Assembly: GCA_019235995.1 (NCBI GenBank)
Contig: JAFAJV010000052.1
Span: forward strand, 1 to 35,167
Length of the DNA: 35,167 nucleotides
DNA from: Vulcanimicrobiota bacterium
GTDB taxonomy: Bacteria; Vulcanimicrobiota; Vulcanimicrobiia; Vulcanimicrobiales; Vulcanimicrobiaceae
Direction: 5' to 3'
The notes beneath the pieces were generated by a model. That model was not told the origin of the DNA. It searched no databases and worked only from the letters and a program-made list of their open reading frames with translations. Made by a program: the position numbers and the translations under genes. How positions within the stretch are numbered: position 1 is the first letter of the stretch; each line of letters starts with the position of its first letter. Shown piece after piece: positions 3,202 to 8,131 of the stretch.

Positions 3202-3269
3202 CATCGGCTCTTTCGGCGAATAGCTGCCTACCCTAAGCCGGTCAGGTGCGCGAAAAAGGGGGAGATACC

Positions 3270-4244
3270 ATGAAACGGTTAGCCTGTATCGTCGGCGCGT
3301 GTTTTAGCGCGGCGCTCTTAGCAGCGTGCGGCGGAAGCGCCGCAACGATAACGCCAAATGGGTCCATCGACGCTTCGTCAGCGAAGACGCCAAAAGGACG
3401 CATCGAAGCTTCGGGGTCGCGAACCTTCCATTACACGGGCGCTGGGCAAACCTTCACAGTGCCGGGCGGCGTGACACAGGTGACGATCACGGCGAAAGGC
3501 GCTAGGGGTGGCGCGGCTGGCGGTCGCGGTGCATCAGTGACAGCTACGATTCCGATTCCGTTCCTGACGCGCAAACTAGCAATTTTTGTGGGCGGTGCGG
3601 GCCATAGCAACGGTGGAGTCTGCTGCGGCGATGGCGGACCGGGCTACAATGGTGGTGGGCGCGGCGCCCAGGACGCAGGCGGGGCAGGAGGTGGTGGGGG
3701 CGCCTCGGACGTGCGCCAGGACGGTGTCGGTTTGACTCAACGCGTGCTCGTCGCCGGCGGGGGTGGAGGCGGCGGCGGCGGCCACGACTCCCGTATCAGC
3801 GGCGGCCCTGGAGGCGAGTCAGGTAGCGGCGGTGGCAACGGCTCTGGATGCGGTCCTCCCTGCGGGGGAGCCGGCTACGGCGGCGCGGCCGGTGGCACGA
3901 GCAGCGGCGGAGCTGGTGGCGCCGGAGGGGTCGGCGGTGGCTCCAACGGCAGTCCAGGCTACGCGGGAGGAGGCGGAGTTCTTGGCGTCGGCGGAGACGG
4001 CGGCTACGGCGGGAGTGTGAACTGCTCGGAATTTCCCTGTGGTGCTGATGCCGGCGGAGGCGGCGGCGGCTATTACGGTGGCGGCGGAGGTGGCGGCGGA
4101 GGCTCCGGTAGTGCAGGTGGCGATGGTGGCCCGGGCGGCGGTGGAGGCGGCGGTTCGTCGTATGCCGAGCCCGGTGCCACGAACGTCACGATAATCCAAG
4201 GGGGTGCCGGGCCTCGAAACGGCGTTGTCGTGATCTCTTGGTAG
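3270..4244 (+). CDS. Glycine-rich surface lipoprotein
   Basis: The product has 324 residues. The ATG follows a strong AGGGGGAG Shine-Dalgarno with 6-nt spacing. Residues 1-19 are a lipoprotein signal peptide ending in the lipobox LAAC, so the mature protein should be lipid-anchored. After a Ser/Ala linker comes a beta-rich segment (RTFHYTGAGQTFTVPGGVTQVTI), and then about 200 residues of Gly/Ala/Ser-rich sequence with long Gly runs and a few paired Cys. The chain ends in a short beta segment (GVVVISW). The layout resembles the glycine-rich domain seen in ALK-type receptors and many bacterial surface proteins. Function is unknown; adhesion or envelope matrix is only a guess. The low-complexity DNA also gives spurious open frames on both strands. 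Confidence 0.8.
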   Translation: MKRLACIVGACFSAALLAACGGSAATITPNGSIDASSAKTPKGRIEASGSRTFHYTGAGQTFTVPGGVTQVTITAKGARGGAAGGRGASVTATIPIPFLTRKLAIFVGGAGHSNGGVCCGDGGPGYNGGGRGAQDAGGAGGGGGASDVRQDGVGLTQRVLVAGGGGGGGGGHDSRISGGPGGESGSGGGNGSGCGPPCGGAGYGGAAGGTSSGGAGGAGGVGGGSNGSPGYAGGGGVLGVGGDGGYGGSVNCSEFPCGADAGGGGGGYYGGGGGGGGGSGSAGGDGGPGGGGGGGSSYAEPGATNVTIIQGGAGPRNGVVVISW

Positions 4245-4358: not shown

Positions 4359-5582
4359 CTACGGCGCAAACGCGAAGACCGTCCCGTTTCCGGTCGGATA
4401 GGCGAGCGCGGCATCAGATGCCGTACCGTAGAGCGCCCCGCGCGAGAGGATCAAACCGGCAAACGGATTGGCGCCGTCGGCGCGATCTTGAAAGCGATAG
4501 ACGACCGCTTCGCTTCCCTGCGGCGTGATTCGATAGATTGTCCCGTTCCGATGCGTGCTCGAGGAACCGATACCGCCGAAGTATGTCGTGCCGTAGAACG
4601 CTCCGTTGAGCTCGACCAAGCCGCCGTAGGGCGTTGCCCCGTCGTCGTAGGCCTTGAAGCGGTAAAGCACCTTCTCTTTCCCCGACCTGTTCACTTGGAA
4701 GACGGTCCCGTTGCTAACGCTGGAATTGCCGCCGCCGTAAACCGTCGTACCATAGAGTCGTCCTTTGGCGTACAGTAGCGTGGTGTCCGGAATCTCGCCG
4801 TCGCTTCCGCCTCTGAAGCTGTAGAGCACTCGCTCCGAACCCGACACTGTTATCGAATACACCGTGCCGCGAGTGTGCCGGCCGCCGCCCGCGGTAACGC
4901 CGTAAAACGCGCCGCCGACCGCGATCAACCCCGAGAGCGGCGCTCTGCCGTCGGGCGAATTGCCGAAACGGTAGATGACGCTCACAGCGCCCGCCTTCGA
5001 CAGCGAAAAGACGGTACCGTTGACACCGTTGCCCCCATATGCCGTAGTCCCGTAGAACAGGCCGTGGTAATAGAGCAACTGGCCAAATGGATTCGCGCCG
5101 TCAGGGGGCCCCTCAAAGCGGTGAAGCACGCGCTCGTTGCCGCGCGGCGTCACGTCGAAGATCGTCCCCTTGCCGCCGCTGCCGCCGGTACCTCCGTTGA
5201 CCGTTGTGCCGTACAGCTTGCCGTCGACGAAAACGAGCGAAGCTTGAGGGTTCGCTCCGTCGCTTCCGCCTTTGAATCGATAAATCACGCGCTCCTTGCC
5301 GCTCACGTCGATAGCGAACACTGTTCCGCATCCGTGCGAGCAGGAGCCGCCACCGCCCTTGGCCGTCGTCCCGTAGAGCGTTCCATCGTGCATGGTCAAA
5401 CCCGCCAACGGATCTTCGCCATCGGGCGAGCCGGCGAAGTCGTAGATGGTTTGAAACGTTCCGCTCGAGCCGCCGCGCTGCTGCATGTTCGCTCCGTTCG
5501 CCTGGGACGGCAGTCCATCGAACGAGCGGGAGCACCCTACGAGCGCGAAAACAACGAAGAAGATGGCGACGACGACACGCAT
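4359..5582 (-). CDS. GloVer-repeat (choice-of-anchor) lipoprotein
   Basis: The product has 407 residues. It begins with a short hydrophobic signal and the lipobox LVGC (Cys17), so it is a predicted lipoprotein. The rest is seven tandem repeats of about 50 residues, each following the pattern F/YRF-x-SPDGANP-x-L-x-LYGTT-x-GG-x-GTVF. This is the repeat of the choice-of-anchor tandem-repeat GloVer family (TIGR03803). Seven repeats would suit a seven-bladed propeller, but that is inference. The ATG overlaps the stop codon of the upstream purN fusion by one base (TAATG), so translation is probably coupled to the last gene of purine block A. The family has no known catalytic function; extracellular binding is the usual assumption. 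Confidence 0.85.
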   Translation of the reverse strand: MRVVVAIFFVVFALVGCSRSFDGLPSQANGANMQQRGGSSGTFQTIYDFAGSPDGEDPLAGLTMHDGTLYGTTAKGGGGSCSHGCGTVFAIDVSGKERVIYRFKGGSDGANPQASLVFVDGKLYGTTVNGGTGGSGGKGTIFDVTPRGNERVLHRFEGPPDGANPFGQLLYYHGLFYGTTAYGGNGVNGTVFSLSKAGAVSVIYRFGNSPDGRAPLSGLIAVGGAFYGVTAGGGRHTRGTVYSITVSGSERVLYSFRGGSDGEIPDTTLLYAKGRLYGTTVYGGGNSSVSNGTVFQVNRSGKEKVLYRFKAYDDGATPYGGLVELNGAFYGTTYFGGIGSSSTHRNGTIYRITPQGSEAVVYRFQDRADGANPFAGLILSRGALYGTASDAALAYPTGNGTVFAFAP

Positions 5583-6694
5583 TAGCCTGAGCGTTCGTAG
5601 AGCCAGCGCGTAATTCCGGCTCGCACGACGCCGCGTTCGATTGCATGCACGCGCTCCATCAGGTGCGCTTCATCTTCTCCAGGCCGTACGCGCAGCGGGC
5701 GACGCGCCATGACCGGCCCGCGATCGGTCGCGGCGGTAACGCGGTGCAGCGTCGCGCCGACCCACTGCGCCGACGCGTTGAGTGCGTCGCGAACCGCGCG
5801 CGGCCCGCGAAAGGCCGGAATGCGCGTACCGTCCGGCAGCACGACGTCGTCGCGCGCGGGATCGAGTGGAAGAAACGCGGGGTGCAGGTTGAACATCTCG
5901 GGAAACGCGGCGACGAACGGCCGCGAAAGCAGATGCATCCAGCCCAGTAACAGTACGAGGTCCGGGCTTTCGGCCGAGGCCGCCTCGAGGAGGCGCGCGT
6001 CGTACTCTGCGCGCGGTTCGCGCTCGCGATTCCAGCTCACGATCGTCGCGCGAATGCCGGCCCCGCGAGCGCGCTCGATTGCGTGCGCGGCCTCGCTGTT
6101 GACGATCAGTCCGACGATCTCCAGCGGGATCGCCCCCTCGCGCGCCGCGTCGAGCACCGCCTGAAAGTTGCTCCCGTTCCCCGAGGCCATCACCAACGTG
6201 CGGCGCTGCGGGCGCAGCAGCGTCGCACAATCGAAGCGCTCCGCGAGCTCCGCGTTCGAGCATCGCGCGTAGTAGCGCGCGAGTCGCTCGTCGCCGACGG
6301 CGGGAATGATCGCGCGCCTATACCCGCTCACGCGCAGCTCGCCGAGCGCGCGCCCCAGCAGTGTACGACCGACACCCTTGCCTCGCTCCTCCGGCGCGAC
6401 GCCGAACGGCCCGAACACGCCCACGCCGGGCTCGCGTGCCAGCCCTTCGAGCCATGAATACGTCAGTCCGTGCGGCTCGATCGTCGCAAAGCCCACCGGC
6501 GAACCGGCGCGACGGGCGACGATGCTGCGGCCGGCGGCGGCCTCCGAGCTCCACGCACCGCCGAACGTCTCGTCGATCCACGCCAGCGTTCGTTCGTCCG
6601 TTCGTACCGGCGCGCCGATCTCGACGCCCGCGGGCGCGGGCGAGTTCATCCGTTCGCGCGCGAGGTCGACGACGAGATTGAGTATCTCGTGCAA
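5582..6694 (-). CDS. purN: GNAT acetyltransferase-PurN fusion (GAR transformylase)
   Basis: The product has 370 residues. Residues about 17-160 are a GNAT-like domain with the acetyl-CoA loop EERGKGVG near 102-109. Residues 165-370 are a phosphoribosylglycinamide formyltransferase. SGNGSNFQ (171-178) matches the phosphate loop, NLHPAFLP supplies the conserved Asn269 and His271, and TDRGPV supplies Asp324, so the N-H-D formyl-transfer set is present. Ordinary PurN is about 200 residues. An insertion (about 278-295, LDPARDDVVLPDG) replaces the usual KYPGLH segment. It transfers formyl from 10-formyl-THF to GAR, step 3 of purine synthesis. The start used is TTG, one base after the GAF gene stop; an ATG at 6649 would trim 15 residues. 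It ends block A after purM and the GAF gene. Confidence 0.88.
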   Translation of the reverse strand: MHEILNLVVDLARERMNSPAPAGVEIGAPVRTDERTLAWIDETFGGAWSSEAAAGRSIVARRAGSPVGFATIEPHGLTYSWLEGLAREPGVGVFGPFGVAPEERGKGVGRTLLGRALGELRVSGYRRAIIPAVGDERLARYYARCSNAELAERFDCATLLRPQRRTLVMASGNGSNFQAVLDAAREGAIPLEIVGLIVNSEAAHAIERARGAGIRATIVSWNREREPRAEYDARLLEAASAESPDLVLLLGWMHLLSRPFVAAFPEMFNLHPAFLPLDPARDDVVLPDGTRIPAFRGPRAVRDALNASAQWVGATLHRVTAATDRGPVMARRPLRVRPGEDEAHLMERVHAIERGVVRAGITRWLYERSG

Positions 6695-6695
6695 G

Positions 6696-7100
6696 CTAGT
6701 CGTAGAGCGGCCGGAGCACCGCGGCGCAGTCTTCCAAGAACGAAACGTCGTCGGGCGTAAGGTCGCGTGAGCCGTCTGCTTCTGCGTCGAGCGTCCCGAT
6801 AACCACGCCGCTTTCCGCGCCGAGGATCGGGACGACCGCCTCGCCGGCGGCGAGCACCGTCGCCCGCGTACTCGCCGCCTCGCCGTTGGGGCCGGAGCTG
6901 ACGGCGATCCGCTCTTCCTCCGGATCCGGCGAGCCGGCGTATCCGAGCAGCGCGATGTACTCGTCTCCTACGTCGAAGATCCTTACGCGGCGCAACGCGC
7001 CGCCCTCGAGAATCATCGCCGCAGCGAGGCCCGCGCGCGCCTCGCGTGCAGCCTCGGTGTCTACGGCGCGCGCGAGCTCGCCGGCGATCGAGCGCGTCAT
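6696..7100 (-). CDS. Small GAF-domain protein
   Basis: The product has 134 residues. The ATG overlaps the purM stop (ATGA), which fixes the start at 7100. The chain reads as a single GAF-like domain: helix (RSIAGELARAVD), strands with MILEGGALRRVRIFD, a core VVPILGAESGVVIGTLDAE typical of GAF strands, and a closing helix (DVSFLEDCAAVLRPL). There is no output domain, so it is either a free small-molecule sensor or an accessory subunit. GAF domains commonly bind cyclic nucleotides or other purines, but no ligand can be read from this sequence. Its position between purM and purN suggests a role tied to purine synthesis. Confidence 0.75.
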   Translation of the reverse strand: MTRSIAGELARAVDTEAAREARAGLAAAMILEGGALRRVRIFDVGDEYIALLGYAGSPDPEEERIAVSSGPNGEAASTRATVLAAGEAVVPILGAESGVVIGTLDAEADGSRDLTPDDVSFLEDCAAVLRPLYD

Positions 7101-8131
7101 GAGTCGCGTGCGGGATGAACGACGACGCGCGGCTCGTCGGCCACTCGTTCTTCGATCCACCCGACGACCTTTGCCCCGCGCGCCGCCTCCGTCGCGGCGG
7201 CGGCGTCCGCAAGCGGGACGATCAACGTGTAGCCGATTCCCATGTTGAAGACGCGATATCGTTCTTCTTCTCCGAGCTTCCCGCGCCGCACCAGCTCGCG
7301 CAGGATCGGCGGCACGCTCCAGCGCCGCTGCTCGAACACCGCCTTGAGGTTTTCGGGAAGCGTGCGCGACACGTTTTCGAGCAGTCCTCCCCCCGTGATG
7401 TGCGCCATTGCCTTTACCTCCGCGACGGCCTGGATCGCGCGCACCTCGCGATAATATGAGGGGTGCTCGGCGAGCAGCGCGTCCGCGTAGGTCATGCCGC
7501 CGAAAGGCGAGTTCCACTCTTCCGGCGCTATCAGCGCACGCGCGAGCGCGTAGCCGTTCGTATGAAGACCGACGGCCGGCAGACCGATAACGGCATCGCC
7601 GGCGGCGACGCTCTCTGCCTTCGGGATCGCGTCGATCTCTACGACGCCGACGATCGTGCCCGCGAGGTCGAAGTGATCGGCGTGATACACTCCCGGCATC
7701 TCCGCCGTCTCGCCGCCCAGCAGCGCGCAGTCGTGACGCCGGCAGGCCTCCGCACAGCCTTCCACGATCTCGGCGGCAACCTCGGGATCGAGCCGGCCGA
7801 CCGCGAGATAGTCCAAGAAGAACAGCGGCGTCGCATTGGAGACGAGGATGTCGTTCACGCAGTGGTTGACCAAGTCGGCGCCGACTTGACCGTAACGCCG
7901 GAGCGCGGCCGCGATCATGACCTTCGTGCCGACTCCGTCGGTCGAGGCCACGAGCGCACGCCGCTCATCGCCCGGCATGGCAAAGAGTCCGGCGAAGCCT
8001 CCGATCGCACCGAGCTGGCCTGCGTGACGCCATCGTCCCAGTAGCTCACGATAGCGCGCGACGGCCTCGTTGCCCGAAGCCACGCTCACGCCGGCACGGG
8101 CATAGCTGTCGGCGCCTTTTTGCTCAGACAC
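7097..8131 (-). CDS. purM: Phosphoribosylformylglycinamidine cyclo-ligase (AIR synthetase)
   Basis: The product has 344 residues, the normal length for the family. It catalyses ATP-dependent ring closure of FGAM to AIR, step 5 of purine synthesis, in the cytoplasm. Family motifs seen are DGVGTKV near residue 66, GADLVNHCVNDILV, LLGGETAEMPGVY and HITGGGLLENVSRTLP, in the order expected for the PurM/PurL ATP-binding fold. The start is GTG at 8131, preceded by a GGGAGA Shine-Dalgarno about 7 nt away. It is the first gene of block A and diverges from pepA with only 60 nt between the two starts. Confidence 0.95.
   Translation of the reverse strand: MSEQKGADSYARAGVSVASGNEAVARYRELLGRWRHAGQLGAIGGFAGLFAMPGDERRALVASTDGVGTKVMIAAALRRYGQVGADLVNHCVNDILVSNATPLFFLDYLAVGRLDPEVAAEIVEGCAEACRRHDCALLGGETAEMPGVYHADHFDLAGTIVGVVEIDAIPKAESVAAGDAVIGLPAVGLHTNGYALARALIAPEEWNSPFGGMTYADALLAEHPSYYREVRAIQAVAEVKAMAHITGGGLLENVSRTLPENLKAVFEQRRWSVPPILRELVRRGKLGEEERYRVFNMGIGYTLIVPLADAAAATEAARGAKVVGWIEERVADEPRVVVHPARDS

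Follow-up and report, generated by a model that had tools for sequence, protein, structure and literature searches.

The GNAT acetyltransferase and the PurN encoded by one reading frame of this Vulcanimicrobiota genome form a genuine fusion, conserved and specific to its lineage, of two enzyme kinds that are each already known. The window, by which we mean the whole stretch of 35,167 nucleotides analyzed, carries the fusion gene on its minus strand at positions 5582..6694, where a single frame of 370 amino acids is read from a TTG start codon at 6692-6694. Both domains are found by Pfam: Acetyltransf_1 matches residues 50-145 above its cut-off (6.3e-9), and the Formyl_trans_N match starts at residue 165 (6.1e-30). 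The claim of an earlier sequence-only reading that a GNAT is fused to PurN is thereby borne out. The chain probably carries two enzymes, PurN and a small-amine N-acetyltransferase that has kept an older job.

All features of the locus described here lie on the minus strand, in the order purM (7097..8131, assigned by Pfam, NCBIfam and synteny), a small gene of 134 amino acids (6696..7100) and the fusion. The small gene is GAF-like by a GAF_2 match that falls below the cut-off; its start overlaps the purM stop, and the TTG codon of the fusion lies 1 base past its own stop. A GAF-like gene occupies this place in 9/70 loci of the window's family, in genera g1, g10 and g13, and none was detected in other g1 members. 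Elsewhere in the window, positions 4359-5582 (minus strand) encode a 407-amino-acid protein with a lipoprotein-like start, repeated YGTT motifs and no Pfam match, and positions 3246-4244 (plus strand) hold a 332-amino-acid frame that is extremely glycine-rich and also has a lipoprotein-like start.

The GNAT domain comprises residues 1-155 (6230..6694), including a conserved N-terminal strand, NLVVDL, as delimited by Pfam, by alignment with stand-alone homologues and by a structural model with a pLDDT of 93.8. The RGKGVG loop named in the sequence-only reading is present as the acetyl-CoA pyrophosphate loop R104-G-K-G-V-G109 (6368..6385), and it fits the motif A loop Q/R-x-x-G-x-G/A of the GNAT superfamily; among relatives, R/Q104 and G109 are mostly kept and the middle Gly107 varies. 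W48 and E51 (6542..6553) belong to an F-x-G-x-W-x-x-E motif that also occurs in GlmA. Tyr142 (6269..6271), identified by alignment and conservation as the canonical GNAT tyrosine, aligns with GlmA Tyr297. Modelling of the full-length fusion gives a single confident unit (pLDDT 96.1, pTM 0.93, with pTM as the sole gauge of inter-domain confidence).

The PurN domain comprises residues 164-370 (5585..6205) and is supported by Pfam, NCBIfam and solved-structure matches. The solved structures closest to the fusion model are the PurN entries 3auf and 3p9x, at 1.7-1.8 angstrom over 204 columns. Alignment locates the catalytic set at Asn269 and His271 (5882..5890) and Asp324 (5723..5725). These three residues were correctly described as intact by the sequence-only reading, and they are conserved in 70/70 PurN sequences of the family and in all 20 other PurN sequences of the phylum that were aligned. 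Compared with PurN as defined by the equivalog TIGR00639, the fusion protein has the same fold, the same N-H-D set and the same position beside purM, but adds an N-terminal GNAT and a phylum-wide insertion of 17 residues after the NLHPAFLP motif. The TIGR00639 cut-off is not reached (129.1 vs 150.1 bits, with the match in two stretches), plausibly because the insertion splits the match. As the catalytic set and the fold agree with PurN while the score falls short, we call the domain PurN-type and infer its activity. No PurT above the cut-off was found in any of 60 genomes, in which full-length matches to the PurT profile reach 188.6 bits against a cut-off of 502 bits and probably represent PurK. 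PurN is therefore probably the sole enzyme for the formylation of glycinamide ribonucleotide (GAR), and the C-terminal half very probably serves the cell as its GAR transformylase.

The insertion itself (about residues 277-293; 5816..5866) was established from alignments with solved and phylum PurN proteins, and its length of 17 residues is relative to three solved PurN structures with printed alignments; against one solved PurN alignment, the window PurN profile breaks at this place. The spacing from HPxxLP to [FYL]RG is 18 residues in the stand-alone PurN of 13/13 loci of one sister family (f3), 4/4 of another (f2) and two others, and 17 in one more. Since PurN proteins that stand alone in this phylum carry the insertion as a rule, it has no link to the fusion and can be dismissed as its partner. 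The unusual insertion of the sequence-only reading is thus real, but it is not special to the fused protein. In the vertebrate trifunctional GARS-AIRS-GART protein, as described in a review, a PurN-type domain is likewise part of a larger chain; its partners there are pathway enzymes, whereas the GNAT partner here is not known as one.

The window's family of soil bacteria (f1) is represented by 99 genomes assigned to Ca. Eremiobacterota/Vulcanimicrobiota, with f2 (4 genomes) and f3 (14 genomes) as sister families. It appears to correspond to the Baltobacteraceae/Vulcanimicrobiaceae group. The fusion is conserved among these relatives: a one-frame fusion is present in 87 of the 88 f1 genomes with a readable junction, and one has PurN alone. 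This count combines a first set of 70 genomes (loci L004-L033 and L127-L166; 69 fused and G135 with PurN alone) and a second set of 18 (L175-L192), all of which run through the junction. Within the second set, the reads of G099, G009 and G011 hit a contig end yet cross the junction, and in G012, outside the 88, the contig ends inside the GNAT. With the frame crossing the junction in so many genomes, an assembly artefact or chance is ruled out. Ten f1 genomes yielded no PurN, GNAT or strong PurM match (G015, G030, G043, G045, G056, G105, G106, G107, G124 and G127). Because these genomes have no strong purM either, either the assembly missed the entire locus or the entire locus has been lost, and purine synthesis with it; G030 is 94% complete though without the fusion or a strong purM match, and G045 has only a weak purM match. 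G025 has the fusion with all five GNAT motif positions kept. No second strong GNAT copy was found in f1 genomes, apart from fragments in G001. There, two overlapping contig pieces of the fusion (L069 and L101) are 96% identical over 144 residues, and they are more likely strain variants than two genes.

Across the phylum, GNAT-profile matches occur in 112/149 genomes and PurN-profile matches in 142/149, both counts including weak matches to related families. A contig scan with a single degenerate motif returned 58 loci (49 fused and 9 GNAT-only, L088 among the latter being cut by a contig end), and the titled records holding GNAT relatives are Candidatus Eremiobacterota MAGs, also titled Vulcanimicrobiota, Eremiobacteria or WPS-2, together with some titled only 'bacterium'. 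Apart from these last, the titles of the 58 loci point to no phylum but this one, within the limited sensitivity of one degenerate motif. Vulcanimicrobium alpinum WC8-2 is described as a cultured member of the candidate family Baltobacteraceae (PMC9758169); we infer that this strain belongs to the window's family.

In the sister families the two halves are encoded apart. GNAT and PurN are separate genes in 4/4 f2 genomes; in f3 the GNAT is a stand-alone gene in 10/14 genomes and was not found in the other 4. The GNAT gene of these families is distant from the PurN gene, and none of their 17 PurN loci has a GNAT within the PurN frame; the 14th f3 genome, G078, is outside these 17 loci and has no GNAT-profile match. 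Separate genes in relatives, which the sequence-only reading had set down as a sign against the fusion, do exist, but the fusion in f1 stands, and the sister families therefore date it rather than undo it. PurM directly precedes the fusion or PurN in 67/70 f1 loci, the other three contigs ending first, and adjoins PurN in 4/4 f2 loci and 10/13 f3 loci. The f3 exceptions are two loci of one genus with PurM 1.5-2 kb off and one contig end. At three more distant loci (f5, f9 and f12), PurN follows purF instead.

A GNAT between purM and purN, joined to PurN, is confined to f1. Because GNAT and PurN are apart in the sister families while purM and purN are mostly adjacent there, the GNAT entered between purM and purN. 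In a quick tree of the GNAT sequences, a single branch with support 94 separates the 66 fused rows from the rest, and the stand-alone rows of f2 and of f3 each lie on a branch of their own; the PurN tree likewise groups f1 (support 90). Given the synteny, both trees and the lack of a second strong GNAT, the comparison of sequences indicates that a single insertion in the ancestor of f1 explains the data.

The GNAT half is largely maintained. Among 69 fused genes surveyed for their residues, 67 had a complete motif region, and in 58 of these 67 W48, E51, R/Q104, G109 and Tyr142 are all intact (57 with Arg104 and one, L147, with Gln104, counted as intact). In 35/86 fused rows another residue takes the place of the middle Gly in the acetyl-CoA loop. 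The Trp, Glu, loop-end and Tyr residues are likewise retained in homologues that stand alone. Asp41 is near-invariant in fused copies (66 of the 67 read) and mostly Arg in stand-alone ones (10/15), so this position could mark a contact with PurN. Motif changes occur in nine fused loci from nine genera (L128-L131, L134, L135, L141, L150 and L153), and the GNAT of L128 is nearly unrecognizable. In G135 (L127, 2070-2783), PurN without a GNAT follows straight after purM, a secondary loss of the GNAT half. As the GNAT has decayed in nine lineages and been lost in one while PurN was kept, PurN can do without the GNAT. The sequence-only reading had asked about orthologues whose GNAT does not bind acetyl-CoA; on the residue evidence, this could apply only to the minority with lost motif residues.

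Selection on the two halves was compared in hand-chosen pairs, 18 fused and one stand-alone, and the pN/pS figures are rough because many pS values are high. In 14 fused pairs without a decayed copy, pN/pS was 0.10-0.49 for the GNAT and 0.10-0.36 for PurN; in the pair L025-L160 the GNAT was clearly looser (0.36 vs 0.10). Where one member of the pair was decayed (four pairs), the GNAT gave 0.88, 0.61, 0.41 and 0.39 against 0.45, 0.58, 0.42 and 0.40 for PurN, and just one of these pairs stands out.

The GNAT model is closest to the C-terminal domain of GlmA (Foldseek 4.6e-9; Z 15.5 over 154 residues, rmsd 2.8), and this fold together with the Acetyltransf_1 profile places the domain in the GNAT superfamily. 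Next by fold, with Z 13.0-14.2, are a Drosophila protein, a mycobacterial tandem GNAT, the acetyltransferase region of RmNag (a fungal glucosamine acetyltransferase, Z 13.9), a Sphaerobacter GNAT, the mycothiol synthase MshD (Z 13.5) and VipF. Sequence profiles also rank GlmA first (7.3e-11), followed by MshD and RmNag. GlmA shares with the fused GNAT the common fold of its C-terminal domain, the F-x-G-x-W-x-x-E motif and the Tyr297 position. Asp287 and Tyr297 of GlmA, which are altered in mutants of solved structure (D287N and Y297F), are presumably central to its mechanism, judging from PDB titles and general background. The position of Asp287 (Pro131 in the window) holds Pro in 54, Ala in 10, Gly in 4 and Thr in 1 of 69 fused rows, and Pro in 9, Gly in 5 and Ala in 1 of 15 stand-alone rows. 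Since Asp287 is not conserved, GlmA chemistry was not simply inherited. GlmA and MshD are moreover tandem GNATs, whereas the window protein has a single GNAT domain of about 155 residues. The domain is therefore not classed as GlmA, given the replacement of Asp287, despite the conserved Tyr297, and the single-domain build. A mycothiol synthase is also rejected in spite of the related fold: the window member has no match to TIGR03448 at 0.01, and the family matches are too weak (6/27 members, the best at 0.00018). RmNag (4ZM6), a GH3 enzyme with a glucosamine N-acetyltransferase region, offers a parallel in architecture, as there too a related GNAT is joined to an enzyme from a different class. 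It differs in that its partner is a glycosidase, its domain order is reversed and its GNAT is tandem. Both fused parts are reported to be active, with two separate activities, and the authors of that work speculate that the connection of the domains is only structural (PMC4680927).

The surroundings of the free GNAT genes name no substrate or single function. No purine genes were found near stand-alone homologues in the loci read; neighbors vary between clades and include AstE/AspA-like, GH125, S13 peptidase, MFS and metallophosphoesterase genes, and in f2 a peptide-binding protein and aroA. Homologues of an f5 copy (L068), at 48-50% identity among the matches listed, lie 16-24 bases upstream of a GH3 gene followed by ABC-transporter genes in three Rhizobium plasmid records, one of which names the transporter oligopeptide ABC; a fourth record, from Ensifer, is unannotated at that place. 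This adjacency suggests that the wider GNAT group deals with amino sugars or wall fragments. The GH3 context was not repeated beside free GNATs in the representatives scanned within the phylum. Presence of GH3 does not discriminate either: it occurs in 94/99 f1 genomes, including 9/10 with a decayed or lost GNAT, and does not track the decay. The one decayed-GNAT genome without GH3, G039, proves nothing.

These data bear on what the GNAT half does. The sequence-only reading suggested that it could couple acetyl-CoA status to purine flux, or acetylate a purine intermediate or a partner enzyme. In a coupled enzyme, either the amine of GAR or phosphoribosylamine would be acetylated, or acetyl-CoA binding would gate PurN and carbon status would set purine flux. 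That the GNAT is fused in frame to PurN, probably the sole GAR transformylase, and has stayed so across f1 is consistent with such coupling, and because the fusion model is confident as one unit, room for it remains in the predicted two-domain structure. MshD, kin by fold and profile, transfers acetyl to the amine of an aminoacyl group carried by an amino sugar; GAR, for its part, consists of a sugar phosphate bearing a glycyl amide. However, the idea finds no direct support: free homologues lie away from pur genes in the loci read, PurN persists in the nine lineages with a decayed GNAT and in the one without it, the nearest solved relatives include enzymes on glucosamine-type amines, and N-acetyl-GAR would be a dead end. 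We consider a coupled enzyme unlikely. A GNAT acting on a purine intermediate, or as an acetyl-CoA gate on PurN, would give a built-in acetyl-CoA link to the first purine formyl transfer, for which our literature search found no described counterpart; such a link appears improbable.

A GNAT half that is no longer catalytic, and instead senses acetyl-CoA or helps the protein to fold, stay stable or dimerize, would account for the variable middle Gly of the loop, for Pro, Ala, Gly or Thr at the Asp287 position and for the loss of motif residues in nine lineages. Intact motif positions in 58/67 fused proteins, pN/pS near that of PurN in most chosen pairs and retention of these Trp, Glu, Tyr and loop-end residues in stand-alone homologues argue against this, as does the fact that the half can be deleted (G135), and we regard it as unlikely. 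A protein acetyltransferase modifying PurN or neighboring purine enzymes would fit the tethering, and VipF, also near by fold, is described as a protein-modifying effector (PMC10936415); a review mentions lysine acetylation of E. coli PurB, PurH, PurT and IMPDH (PMC10912719). Yet small amines are the substrates of the nearest solved relatives, and the stand-alone copies lack a purine context, which makes this very improbable.

The GNAT half is most likely an acetyl-CoA-dependent N-acetyltransferase of a small amine, a reading of sequence and fold that we adopt because the nearest solved relatives include enzymes on glucosamine-type amines. In the two-enzyme account, the C-terminal PurN would pass a formyl group from 10-formyl-tetrahydrofolate to glycinamide ribonucleotide, and the N-terminal single-domain GNAT would move an acetyl group from acetyl-CoA to a small-molecule amine, perhaps an amino-sugar-like one, by means of its R-x-x-x-x-G loop and Tyr142. 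A GNAT gene that had been free-standing, as it still is in the sister families, would have landed in frame between purM and purN on a single occasion in the f1 ancestor, and the enzyme probably kept its older job. The fusion would then mainly tie the two halves in expression and amount. The account builds on the observed architecture, synteny, conservation, predicted fold and single origin on the tree, from which catalytic activity, class of substrate and absence of metabolic coupling are deduced.

Our literature search found no paper on a GNAT-PurN fusion, and the main text of a fusion survey (PMC4921024) contains no purN, purine, formyltransferase, acetyltransferase or GNAT. The locus offers a clear, datable example of an independent enzyme that came to sit in frame within a conserved pair of purine genes and was then retained in nearly all readable f1 genomes, and the losses reveal which half is essential. 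For annotators it is a reason against reading acetyl-CoA control into the fusion ahead of an assay. It also provides a natural test of whether a long-lived enzyme fusion means metabolic coupling or merely shared expression.
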